Below are positions 30,971-40,012 of a DNA stretch of 56,042 nucleotides, in pieces (position 1 is the first letter of the stretch; the number at the start of each line of letters is the position of its first letter). Source of the DNA: Thermoplasmata archaeon. Its GTDB lineage: Archaea; Thermoplasmatota; Poseidoniia; Poseidoniales; Thalassarchaeaceae. The stretch is from the NCBI GenBank assembly GCA_002727675.1, contig PBXQ01000054.1, positions 1 to 56,042 on the forward strand, written 5' to 3'. The notes beneath the pieces were generated by a model that was not told the DNA's origin, ran no database searches, and saw only the letters and a list, made by a program, of their open reading frames with translations. Position numbers and translations under genes: made by a program.

Positions 30971-31044
30971 GGGCCTGTAGCTCAGTCAGGTGGAGCGACG
31001 GACTTTTAATCCGTTGGTCGCGGGTTCGAACCCCGTCAGGCCCG
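30971..31044 (+). tRNA. tRNA-Lys (anticodon UUU), CCA not encoded
   Basis: Acceptor GGGCCTG/CAGGCCC, D-arm GCTC..GAGC, anticodon arm ACGGA-CTTTTAA-TCCGT, T-arm GCGGG-TTCGAAC-CCCGT. Confidence 0.96.
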
Positions 31045-31095
31045 CTCCACCAATTGGGCCTCAGTCCATCGTTTTTGGAGTCTGGGGGAAAGGGC

Positions 31096-31686
31096 GTGGC
31101 GGTCAAATCATCAACTAAGAAACGACTAATGGAATTGGGTGTAAAAGAGGAGCTGGCACACAAGTTGGCGGATGATGCCAACATGGATACCATCAAGAAG
31201 ATGAGTGCCAATGATGTTGCTACTAAACTTGGATTGAAGATGGGTGACAATGAACTTGAGACCATTATGGATATTATTCGTGAACAATCTGCATCAAAAC
31301 GTCGCAGACCCACACGCCGGGTTGAGATGAAAGCAGAATTGCGTAAGTTGGAAACAAGTATTCCTTTGGGTGAAATGAGATTTAATGTTTTGAATCATGA
31401 ACTTGTACCACTCCATGAATTAGTTTCCGAAGATGAAGAAATGGAAGAATTGTCTCCCTGGGAATTGATAGGTTCTGATGTAGATGGCAATCAAAGATTA
31501 CGCAGGGAATTGTTGCCTAAGATTTTGATTACTGATCCAGCTATTCAGGCTCTCAAAGAGGCTCTAGAGTTGGAAAATGATGAACTTAGGGCTGGTTGGT
31601 TGAATAACAGGGTGGTGCGAATCACACGCCGTAGCCCATCTGCAGGTATTCACGTAGCTTACAGGTTAGTAGTAGAGGGTAATTAA
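31096..31686 (+). CDS. rpoH: RNA polymerase subunit H (Rpb5-like) with N-terminal helical extension
   Basis: FNVLNHELVPLHELVSEDEE...LPKILITDPAIQAL...VRITRRSPSAGIHVAYRLVV. Likely GTG start at 31096 (VAVKSSTKKRL). Confidence 0.92.
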   Translation: MAVKSSTKKRLMELGVKEELAHKLADDANMDTIKKMSANDVATKLGLKMGDNELETIMDIIREQSASKRRRPTRRVEMKAELRKLETSIPLGEMRFNVLNHELVPLHELVSEDEEMEELSPWELIGSDVDGNQRLRRELLPKILITDPAIQALKEALELENDELRAGWLNNRVVRITRRSPSAGIHVAYRLVVEGN

Positions 31687-31699: not shown

Positions 31700-34600
31700 A
31701 TGAAAGAAATTATTGAAACATTCTTTAGAGAAAGAAGTCTTGTGAACCATCAAATTGCTTCATACGATGATTGTCTTCCCAAAGGAGATGGCCGTAATTG
31801 TCGTTTTGAAAAAATTGTACAAGGGATAAAAATAGGAACAGACGAGGTAATTGAAGATGATGAAGGAGGATTAGTCAAACTGGACGTCCTAGATAACGAA
31901 ATTACAGTACGAATGAAGAATTTAACTTTGGGTCCCCCAACAATTCGTGAAGCAAATGGAGCAAATAATTACGACGCGACACCTTTAGAGTGCCGGTTGA
32001 GAAAATTGACTTATTCTTCTCCAATTATGCTGGATTTTACTATTCACCGTGAAGACCACCCTACTCCAATTAAGGAAGAATCAGTACAAATTGGTAGTTT
32101 GCCAATTATGGTTAGGTCAGAGAGATGCAATCTAAATCCTGGGCATGTTGACCCCAACCGCATTCTTAAGCCGGAATCTAGTGAAGAGGATAAAGAAGTA
32201 TACATGTCCCTTCTTAAGAAAAAAGGAGAAGACCCATATGATCCAGGTGGTTATTTCATTATTAACGGAACAGAAAGAGTCCTCATTTCTATGGAAGATT
32301 TAGCACCTAACAGGGTTACCGTTGAGATGAATAAGAGATATACCCGTCAAACAGAAGTTGCTAAGATATTTTCTCAGAAAGATGGTGTACGTAAGCCGTT
32401 AACTGTGGAAAAGAGAAAAGATGGAATGTTGATGGTGAAAATCAGTAGTGCAGGTGCTCAGGTAATTCCTGCTGTTTTATTGATGCGTGCTTTGGGAATA
32501 AATTCAGATGAAGAGATATTCTCATCAATTGCTGGACATAAAGATGCTTTCAAGTATGTTGTTGCCAACATTAACCACGTAAGAGACCCTGAAATCAAGG
32601 ACCCTTATGCAGTTGAAACAAATGAGGAAGCTATTGCATGGTTAGAGAAGAAATTCGCAGCAGGGCAACAAAAAGAATATCGTGAACAGCGAGTAAATAA
32701 TTTGATGGACAAAGAGTTACTGCCTCATCTTGGGCAACAACCAGAACACAGAATGAAGAAAGCCGTATTCTTGGGTAGAATTGTTCGTCAAGTTCTAGAG
32801 ATGGCCATTACAGATAAAAAAGCAAATGACAAGGATCATTATGCAAATAAGAGAGTAAGATTGGCAGGTGATTTGATTGAGGATTTGTTCAGAGTTAGTA
32901 TGACTCAATTGGCTCGTGATTTGAAGTACCAATTAGAAAGACACCATAACAGAAAGAGAGAGTTGAAGATTAACAGTTGTTTACGTCCGGATGTTTTGAC
33001 ATCTAAGATTATGCACGCTTTAGCAACTGGTAATTGGGTTGGTGGTAGAACAGGAGTTAGTCAACTTTTGGACCGTACCACATATATTTCTGCACTTTCA
33101 CATATGCGTAGAGTTACAAGTCCTCTTGTAAGAAGCCAACCTCATTTCGAAGCTCGTGATTTACACCCAACCCAATGGGGCAGGCTTTGCCCTAATGAGA
33201 CTCCAGAAGGTCAAAATTGTGGTTTGGTAAAGAACGCATCCCAAATGATTGACGTTTCTGAAGCAGTTTCTGAAATTGAGGTGCAAGAGTTACTAAGAGA
33301 AGCAAATGTAGTTGAGCCAGAAGATTGGTCAGAGGGTTCAAGAATACATGTAAATGGAGATATTTTTGGTTTGCATAAGAACCCAAACCGTCTCATAACT
33401 CATTTCAAGCGTCGCCGCAGAAACGGCCGTATCCGCCCAGAAGTAAGTATTCGTCACGATTCTGTTAATAGGGATATTTTCATCAATACTGACAAAGGGC
33501 GTATTCTCCGTCCATTATTGGTATTGGATAATGGGAATATGGTTCTTGCAAAAGAGCACATAGAGGCATTGAGAGAACGTGAAATTACATTCAAGGATTT
33601 GGTAAATAAAGGAGTGGTTGAATGGGTTGATGCAGAAGAAGAAGAAGATCTTCTAATTGCGCCAAGGCCATATGATTTGCCAGCTTTGTCTCCAAAGCAT
33701 AAAAGGCCAATTAACCCTGCTAAAGTTAATTGGAAGAATCTTGGCGAATTCGACATTTCTCATGCTGATTTAGAAGTGGATGTGCAATTGTCTAATGGTG
33801 ATTGGGTAACTGAGAAAATGAAATTACCACTGAATTACTTCCAAGAAGAAATTGAAAAATTACGCCGTAAAGAAAAGAAGAGTGGTGATGTTCTTGTATA
33901 TACTCACGTGGAAATAGATCCTCAACTAATTCTTGGTGTTTGTGCTAGTTTAGTTCCTTATCCGGAGCACAACTCTACACCTCGTGTTACTGGCGGTACT
34001 GCTATGGTTAAGCAATCACTAGGTTTACCTGCAAGTAATCACAGATTAAGGCCTGATACTAGGATGCATATTTTGGATTACCCGCAACGTTCTATAGTTC
34101 AAACAAAATCTATGGAAACCACCAATTTCGTCAACAGACCAGGTGGGCAAAATTTCATTGTAGCAATATTAAGTCATCATGGATATAATATGCAAGACGC
34201 TGTGATTATGAACCGCGCATCTGTTGAAAGGTCTCTTGGGCGTTCAAGTTTCGTCCGTACATACAATGCAGAGAAGAAAAGGTTCCCAGGTGGTCAACAA
34301 GAAGAGATTCAGATTCCAGGTGCAGGGCAAGATGAAGTAAAAGGAAGGAAGGATAGTTCTGAGTATGATCATTTAGAATATGATGGTCTCCCACATCCTG
34401 AGACAATGTTGTCTGGTAAAAGAGATGATGATCCTGCTGTTTTGGTTGGAAAAACTAGTCCACCACGTTTCCTTGAAGAAGGTCATGGTGCTTTCATGAT
34501 GGGTCAGTACCGTCAAGAGTCTAGTATGCACGTTCGTCATGGTGAGAGTGGAAATGTAGATCATCTCTTTGTGACTGAAAGTTTGGACGCAGGGCGCTTA

Positions 34601-35377
34601 GTAAGAATTACCTTACGTCAACATCGTATTCCTGAATTAGGTGACAAGTTTTCATCTAGGCACGGTCAGAAGGGTGTCATTGGTCGCCTAGTTAATCAAG
34701 AGGATATGCCATTTACAGTTGATGGTGTTGTCCCGGATTTGATCATTAATCCTCACGCGATTCCAAGTAGGATGACAGTTGCTCACATTCTAGAAATGAT
34801 TGGTGGGAAAACAGGCGCAATGGAAGGTCGTTTCATTGACGCTTCTGCATTTTCTAGTGAAAAGGAAGCATCTATTCGTGAAGGTTTGCTAAGGAATGGT
34901 TTCCAGCACACTGGTCGTGAGAAGATGATTAATGGTGAGACTGGTGAGGAGTATCCATCTAACATCTTTGTAGGATGTATTTATTATCAGAAACTTCATC
35001 ATATGGTGAGTAGTAAGATTCACGCACGTAGTCGTGGTAGAGTGCAGATTCTAACAAGACAACCGACTGAAGGTCGTGCACGTCAAGGTGGTTTGAGGTT
35101 TGGTGAAATGGAGCGTGATTGTCTAATTGCTCATGGTGCTTCAATGGTAATTAAGGATAGATTGCTAGATGAATCTGATGGTGTCCATCTAGCAGTGTGT
35201 GCAGAAAGTGGGCACATTGCTTATTGGGATAACAGAAGAAGATGTTACATCAGTCCAGTCCATGGTGAAAGTGCAGAGGTACATTTAGTTGAAACCTCAT
35301 ATGCATTTAAGTTGTTATTAGATGAAATGAAATCTCTTGGGGTCGCTATGAGGCTTCAGTTGGAGGATAGGAAGTGA
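31700..35377 (+). CDS. rpoB: RNA polymerase subunit B, undivided (B''+B')
   Basis: 1225 aa; GGYFIINGTERVLI, LCPNETPEGQNCGLVKN, GDKFSSRHGQKGVIG. Confidence 0.97.
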   Translation: MKEIIETFFRERSLVNHQIASYDDCLPKGDGRNCRFEKIVQGIKIGTDEVIEDDEGGLVKLDVLDNEITVRMKNLTLGPPTIREANGANNYDATPLECRLRKLTYSSPIMLDFTIHREDHPTPIKEESVQIGSLPIMVRSERCNLNPGHVDPNRILKPESSEEDKEVYMSLLKKKGEDPYDPGGYFIINGTERVLISMEDLAPNRVTVEMNKRYTRQTEVAKIFSQKDGVRKPLTVEKRKDGMLMVKISSAGAQVIPAVLLMRALGINSDEEIFSSIAGHKDAFKYVVANINHVRDPEIKDPYAVETNEEAIAWLEKKFAAGQQKEYREQRVNNLMDKELLPHLGQQPEHRMKKAVFLGRIVRQVLEMAITDKKANDKDHYANKRVRLAGDLIEDLFRVSMTQLARDLKYQLERHHNRKRELKINSCLRPDVLTSKIMHALATGNWVGGRTGVSQLLDRTTYISALSHMRRVTSPLVRSQPHFEARDLHPTQWGRLCPNETPEGQNCGLVKNASQMIDVSEAVSEIEVQELLREANVVEPEDWSEGSRIHVNGDIFGLHKNPNRLITHFKRRRRNGRIRPEVSIRHDSVNRDIFINTDKGRILRPLLVLDNGNMVLAKEHIEALREREITFKDLVNKGVVEWVDAEEEEDLLIAPRPYDLPALSPKHKRPINPAKVNWKNLGEFDISHADLEVDVQLSNGDWVTEKMKLPLNYFQEEIEKLRRKEKKSGDVLVYTHVEIDPQLILGVCASLVPYPEHNSTPRVTGGTAMVKQSLGLPASNHRLRPDTRMHILDYPQRSIVQTKSMETTNFVNRPGGQNFIVAILSHHGYNMQDAVIMNRASVERSLGRSSFVRTYNAEKKRFPGGQQEEIQIPGAGQDEVKGRKDSSEYDHLEYDGLPHPETMLSGKRDDDPAVLVGKTSPPRFLEEGHGAFMMGQYRQESSMHVRHGESGNVDHLFVTESLDAGRLVRITLRQHRIPELGDKFSSRHGQKGVIGRLVNQEDMPFTVDGVVPDLIINPHAIPSRMTVAHILEMIGGKTGAMEGRFIDASAFSSEKEASIREGLLRNGFQHTGREKMINGETGEEYPSNIFVGCIYYQKLHHMVSSKIHARSRGRVQILTRQPTEGRARQGGLRFGEMERDCLIAHGASMVIKDRLLDESDGVHLAVCAESGHIAYWDNRRRCYISPVHGESAEVHLVETSYAFKLLLDEMKSLGVAMRLQLEDRK

Positions 35378-35381
35378 TAAC

Positions 35382-40012
<4,631 letters not shown>

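Follow-up and report, generated by a model that had tools for sequence, protein, structure and literature searches.

RpoH and RpoA'', two core subunits of RNA polymerase, begin with the same small helical module throughout the marine archaeal order Poseidoniales, and the RpoH copy is, on the profile evidence, particular to this order within the Thermoplasmatota sampled. Archaeal Rpo5 is described as having no N-terminal extension, which serves as a standard contrast with eukaryotic polymerases; here a widespread marine archaeal group breaks the rule, and the domain it has added seems to be a copy taken from a second subunit of the polymerase itself. It is unusual for a domain to be copied between core subunits of a universal machine, and this case offers a natural experiment on the effect of an addition at the position of the Rpb5 jaw. 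We found no prior description of the RpoH and RpoA'' extensions in the open-licence literature, where the variable RpoA'' appendage also seems undescribed. That the module is a tethered protein-docking device on both subunits, with RpoA'' as the source of the copy, is the reading we put first, at about an even chance.

The window (the whole stretch analysed, 56,042 nucleotides) comes from a metagenome-assembled genome of Poseidoniales (Marine Group II). Its polymerase locus reads tRNA-Lys, rpoH, rpoB, rpoA', rpoA'' and an L7Ae/L30e-like gene, and contains the following features:

31096..31686, + strand: rpoH (Rpo5) gene, N-terminally extended, 196 aa with a GTG start; reading frame, and PF01191 at residues 96-192 (E 7.8e-16)
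31096..31287, + strand: RpoH N-terminal (HhH)2-like module, residues 1-64; homology to the RpoA'' module
31288..31377, + strand: RpoH linker, predicted flexible, residues 65-94, basic at its start; pLDDT and net charge
31378..31683, + strand: RpoH assembly domain (Rpb5 C-terminal domain); PF01191, and Foldseek matches to archaeal subunit H and eukaryotic Rpb5
31700..35377, + strand: rpoB, in the operon between the two modified subunits; Pfam Rpb2 domains
35382..38477, + strand: rpoA' (Rpo1N); Pfam Rpb1 domains 1-4 and part of 5
38477..40012, + strand: rpoA'' (Rpo1C) gene, 511 aa, of which about the first 110 form an N-terminal extension; TIGR02389 match over residues 131-505 (E 1e-124)
38477..38662, + strand: RpoA'' N-terminal (HhH)2-like module, residues 1-62; homology to the RpoH module and to RpoA'' N-termini of other Thermoplasmatota families
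38663..38806, + strand: RpoA'' linker, predicted disordered, residues 63-110, strongly basic; low pLDDT

RpoH thus has the assembly domain of the archaeal subunit, of the Rpb5 C-terminal type (PF01191, with a structural match to archaeal subunit H), preceded by an extension of 94 residues, whereas archaeal RpoH (Rpo5) has been described as devoid of any N-terminal extension (PMC3906176). The extension is not a jaw of the eukaryotic type: Pfam gives no match to the Rpb5 N-terminal domain in RpoH, and the Foldseek alignments of RpoH with Rpb5 mostly span about 96-100 columns, which corresponds in length to the C-terminal domain. Matches of RpoH to Cas_CT1975, nesprin and ADH were at chance level. 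The neighbouring RpoA' shows a peculiarity of its own: compared with Pyrococcus Rpo1N, residues 419-564 (window 36636-37073) form an insertion of about 130-146 aa, located before the active-site NADFDGD region. This insertion, which received no Pfam name, holds CxNPxC and CPHC pairs with the look of a zinc-binding site; it was seen in all Poseidoniales loci read and in none of six loci of other families, including the sister group.

The sequence-only reading had proposed that the N-terminal segments of RpoH and RpoA'' are homologous, and this is borne out. In a single BLASTP comparison, the two modules are identical at 29 of 73 positions (40%, E 1e-15), and their local alignment score of 120 lies far above those of 5000 shuffles (mean 25, maximum 53). 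A six-frame search of the whole genome with the RpoH segment returned only RpoH itself and RpoA'' (E 2.5e-9), with no third copy of the module; the further copies that the same reading had suggested looking for thus reduce to these two. Its boundaries need one correction: the start at 31096 is right, whereas the end at 31320 falls in the linker, the module stopping at 31287. Recent gene conversion between the modules is unsupported, as their DNA identity is just 55%.

Could the extensions be an annotation artefact, with the real starts lying downstream and the extensions left untranslated? The RpoH start codon is a GTG with an in-frame TTG upstream, and the open frame of rpoH extends back into the tRNA-Lys gene, so that automatic start calling could err here. 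(This tRNA-Lys (TTT) gene, at 30971-31045 of the window, ends 50 bases upstream of rpoH.) However, the in-frame stretch 5' of the start codon varies among relatives and conservation begins exactly at codon 1, while a G-rich, ribosome-binding-like sequence precedes both starts. Across the order, mean column identity in RpoH is 0.72 for the module, 0.74 for the core and 0.54 for the linker. Values of dN/dS fall at 0.01-0.04 across the modules: we obtained 0.036 for the RpoH module and 0.014 for the RpoA'' module against 0.059 for both cores, from six same-genus RpoH and four same-genus RpoA'' sequences in which synonymous sites are near saturation, making the values rough but leaving their ordering clear. 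Judged by these ratios, purifying selection on each module is stronger than on the body of its own subunit, which argues that the start sites are right. An artefact is therefore most improbable, and start sites downstream of the extensions, which had been named as a way for the initial proposal to fail, are contradicted by both selection and conservation.

The module was found in all 40 relatives examined. Of the 296 genomes sampled across the phylum, 82 are Poseidoniales, and 80 of these carry it, nearly always in two copies; the other two are uninformative, since neither rpoH nor rpoA'' was found there. Both families of the order carry both copies, and nearly all of the best 80 of 548 matching stretches are labelled Euryarchaeota, Poseidoniales, Thalassarchaeaceae or Marine Group II. 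Outside the order, the best match of the Poseidoniales profile in a whole genome has an E-value of 0.03. Among 98 genomes of other Thermoplasmatota with RpoH, sister group included, none was found to have the module on this subunit: RpoH stop-to-stop frames there are mostly 76-150 aa long (81-88 aa in five genomes of the sister group), and those read show no module at the frame start. The module had been described as absent from typical archaeal subunits and as specific to one lineage. The first statement holds for RpoH within Thermoplasmatota; the second holds for the RpoH copy but not for the RpoA'' copy, for which leave-family-out HMMs give matches at the start of RpoA'' from 14 of the 34 further Thermoplasmatota families sampled (f3, f5, f8, f12, f17, f18, f19, f25, f26, f29, f30, f31, f32 and f36) with E-values from 1e-6 to 1e-21. 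Weaker matches in f4, f10, f15, f21 and f23 mostly fall on HHH_5-like repeats, and about fifteen other families gave no RpoA'' module match with these HMMs. As far as such profiles can tell, the RpoA'' module is patchily spread over much of Thermoplasmatota.

RpoA'' frames outside the order are often 450-900 aa long, with the surplus at the N-terminus, and many outgroup RpoA'' proteins start with M(A/S)KxDTIxALxKRGhxxxhAxxhA. A profile-profile comparison aligns Poseidoniales and outgroup modules in register from residue 3 (probability 94%, E 9e-8), a match inflated, like those of the outgroup profile below, by the choice of the outgroup set (A2) by eye for its N-terminal motif. This bias is lessened, but not removed, in the leave-family-out HMMs and in an HMM built from Poseidoniales only. 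The latter provides the stronger evidence: against 72 outgroup RpoA'' proteins its best eleven matches are all N-terminal, led by the RpoA'' N-termini of f5 (E 1.5e-4) and f29 (2.2e-4). Overall, the N-terminal appendage of Thermoplasmatota RpoA'' appears to be fast-changing, with HhH repeats, unnamed domains and charged tails.

Several of these RpoA'' starts deserve description. In the sister group (family f3; L115, L118, L119, L121 and L122), the N-terminal extension is about 390 aa long, with the helical module (L118:3176-3364) followed by a conserved unnamed region, beta-rich in look and without Pfam match. In several other families (L130-L132, L143, L144, L146, L154, L155, L191, L199, L204 and L206), RpoA'' starts with an unnamed domain bearing a motif like GYITxxKxxxxYxVxISxV; it is apparently doubled in L206, and those scanned had no Pfam match. 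In family f16 (L142, L147, L150-L153, L156-L159 and L107), long lysine-rich, low-complexity tails replace the folded module.

In a tree of the modules (66 columns, with long branches), RpoH and Poseidoniales RpoA'' are separated from all other RpoA'' modules with support of 99/98. The sister group has the module on RpoA'' only. The RpoA'' module was probably the source, copied once onto RpoH on the Poseidoniales stem; this direction is drawn from the distribution and not from the tree. We infer that the RpoA'' copy is the older of the two, and we saw no other candidate gene as a source of the RpoH copy.

The suggestion of a small helical, HhH- or SAM-like fold fares well. AlphaFold models both modules as five helices with a module pLDDT of about 80 (helices 6-13, 18-25, 30-34, 38-45 and 52-67 in RpoH); pLDDT drops to about 51-55 at RpoH residues 71-100 and stays below 60 in the linkers of both subunits. 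With the RpoA'' model, Foldseek retrieves NusA, FANCM, RAD51-N, XPF and Hef domains with probabilities of 0.9-1.0, the best E-value being only 0.059; models and matches agree on a compact five-helix (HhH)2 fold. The outgroup profile matches the HhH domains of Topo V (2.7e-11) and NusA (1.2e-6), then ligase and RadA, and a combined profile retains Topo V and NusA at 1e-4 to 1e-3. The Poseidoniales-only profile gives no significant PDB match and no convincing Pfam name, and therefore the evidence for the fold comes mainly from other Thermoplasmatota sequences and from models of pLDDT around 80. Taken together, these predictions support a five-helix domain of the (HhH)2, NusA acidic-repeat or RAD51-N type on a flexible basic linker. 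For Pfam HHH_5 (PF14520), the best E-value is 6.8e-6 in the outgroup and 0.026 in Poseidoniales, and the outgroup member shown in full scores 20.3 bits against a curated cut-off of 27; we file the module as HHH_5/(HhH)2 superfamily-like, not as a member of PF14520.

Where would the two modules sit on the enzyme? RpoA'' residue 151 aligns with Rpb1 1038, which places the canonical RpoA'' start (around residue 110) near Rpb1 residue 997 or so, in what we take to be the foot region. In published structures, the N-terminus of archaeal RpoH sits at the downstream-DNA end (PMC2675907, PMC3906176), by a corner where Rpo13 docks in Sulfolobales and which the Rpb5 jaw partly fills in eukaryotes (PMC2675907; see also PMC13257274 for Rpo5 position and Rpo13). 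By analogy, this downstream-DNA/Rpo13 corner is where the RpoH module of Poseidoniales would project. Open-complex formation depends on RpoH, and when Pyrococcus received a chimeric RpoH fitted with the N-terminal domain of yeast Rpb5, the added domain was soon lost (PMC3906176).

Our preferred reading, protein docking, would run as follows. Each subunit would hold out one small helical domain on a flexible, basic N-terminal linker, and this domain may act as a tethered docking device like NusA AR2 and the bacterial alpha CTD. Initiation or elongation factors would thereby gain two grips on the polymerase, RpoA'' offering one in the foot region and RpoH the other at the downstream-DNA end, where eukaryotes have the Rpb5 jaw and Sulfolobales have Rpo13; the basic linkers may add non-specific nucleic-acid contacts. 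A precedent exists in NusA AR2, a dual HhH domain that binds proteins, namely alpha CTD and SuhB (PMC6614801). Behind protein docking we place DNA binding second and a pairing of the two modules third.

In the second of these readings, the modules are DNA-binding appendages, the RpoH copy holding downstream DNA in the manner of the Rpb5 jaw or Rpo13 and the RpoA'' copy another stretch. The profile relatives are mostly DNA binders (Topo V, RadA, ligase), Foldseek matches include RAD51-N, XPF/Hef and FANCM domains, the linkers are basic (net charge +1 to +5 in the RpoH rows examined, +6 to +10 for RpoA'' residues 63-98), and the position of the RpoH N-terminus beside downstream DNA (PMC2675907, PMC3906176) would suit such a role. 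The module itself, however, is neutral to slightly acidic (0 to -3), the conserved N-terminal lysines K4, K8 and K9 being its sole obvious basic patch. Moreover, the GhG hairpin that contacts DNA phosphate is missing from all 45 module sequences, while 10 of 13 neighbouring HHH_5 repeats have it. Even without GhG, the module may still bind DNA. Protein docking is favoured over direct DNA binding because GhG is absent, the module is neutral or acidic, and NusA AR2 binds proteins; the DNA-binding role first suggested for the module is accordingly not favoured, and we consider it possible but tentative.

Alternatively, the two modules might pair with each other, like the paralogous (HhH)2 domains of XPF-ERCC1 and FANCM-FAAP24. 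Such a pair would staple the two subunits to each other and brace the lower jaw and foot in a way particular to Poseidoniales. In its favour, the order retains exactly two paralogous copies together, each on a different subunit of a single complex, the fold matches include dimer-forming (HhH)2 and SAM domains, and both linkers are long and flexible. Yet in other families the RpoA'' module exists without a partner copy on RpoH; we regard pairing as unlikely. Likewise unlikely is its bolder version, a heterodimer of modules across the polymerase that forms a movable jaw specific to Poseidoniales, derived from the RpoA'' appendage duplicated onto RpoH; if true, it would be a third, independently built structure at the place taken by the Rpb5 jaw in eukaryotes and by Rpo13 in Sulfolobales. 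Finally, the module could help to assemble or stabilize the polymerase without binding any factor or nucleic acid. Its N-terminal placement on RpoH and RpoA'' and its tight conservation would fit, but long disordered linkers separate it from the core and most archaea assemble their polymerase without it, which makes this role improbable.

Among known systems, the bacterial NusA repeats AR1 and AR2 come closest to the protein-docking reading: they share the dual HhH fold and motif (best or near-best match), the transcription context and the tethering to RNA polymerase. To our knowledge, the NusA acidic repeats also lack GhG, as the module does. NusA, however, is a free-standing factor that also has NTD, S1 and KH domains, whereas the Poseidoniales module is fused to archaeal core subunits, the proteins that carry it being RpoH and RpoA''. 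The eukaryotic Rpb5 jaw is likewise an N-terminal addition to the same subunit, before the same C-terminal assembly domain, but it has about 130-145 residues and another fold, and we found no sequence relation between it and the 64-aa HhH-like module. Rpo13 of Sulfolobales resembles the RpoH module as a small, lineage-specific helical element at the RpoH/clamp-head corner (PMC2675907); it differs in being a separate, unfused HTH subunit of other sequence. Closest in location are the HHH_5 repeats on RpoA'' of other Thermoplasmatota (L111, L113, L116, L145, L195 and L197), which belong to the same superfamily and occupy the same end of the same subunit, but are mostly canonical GhG hairpins in one to three copies, none of them on RpoH.
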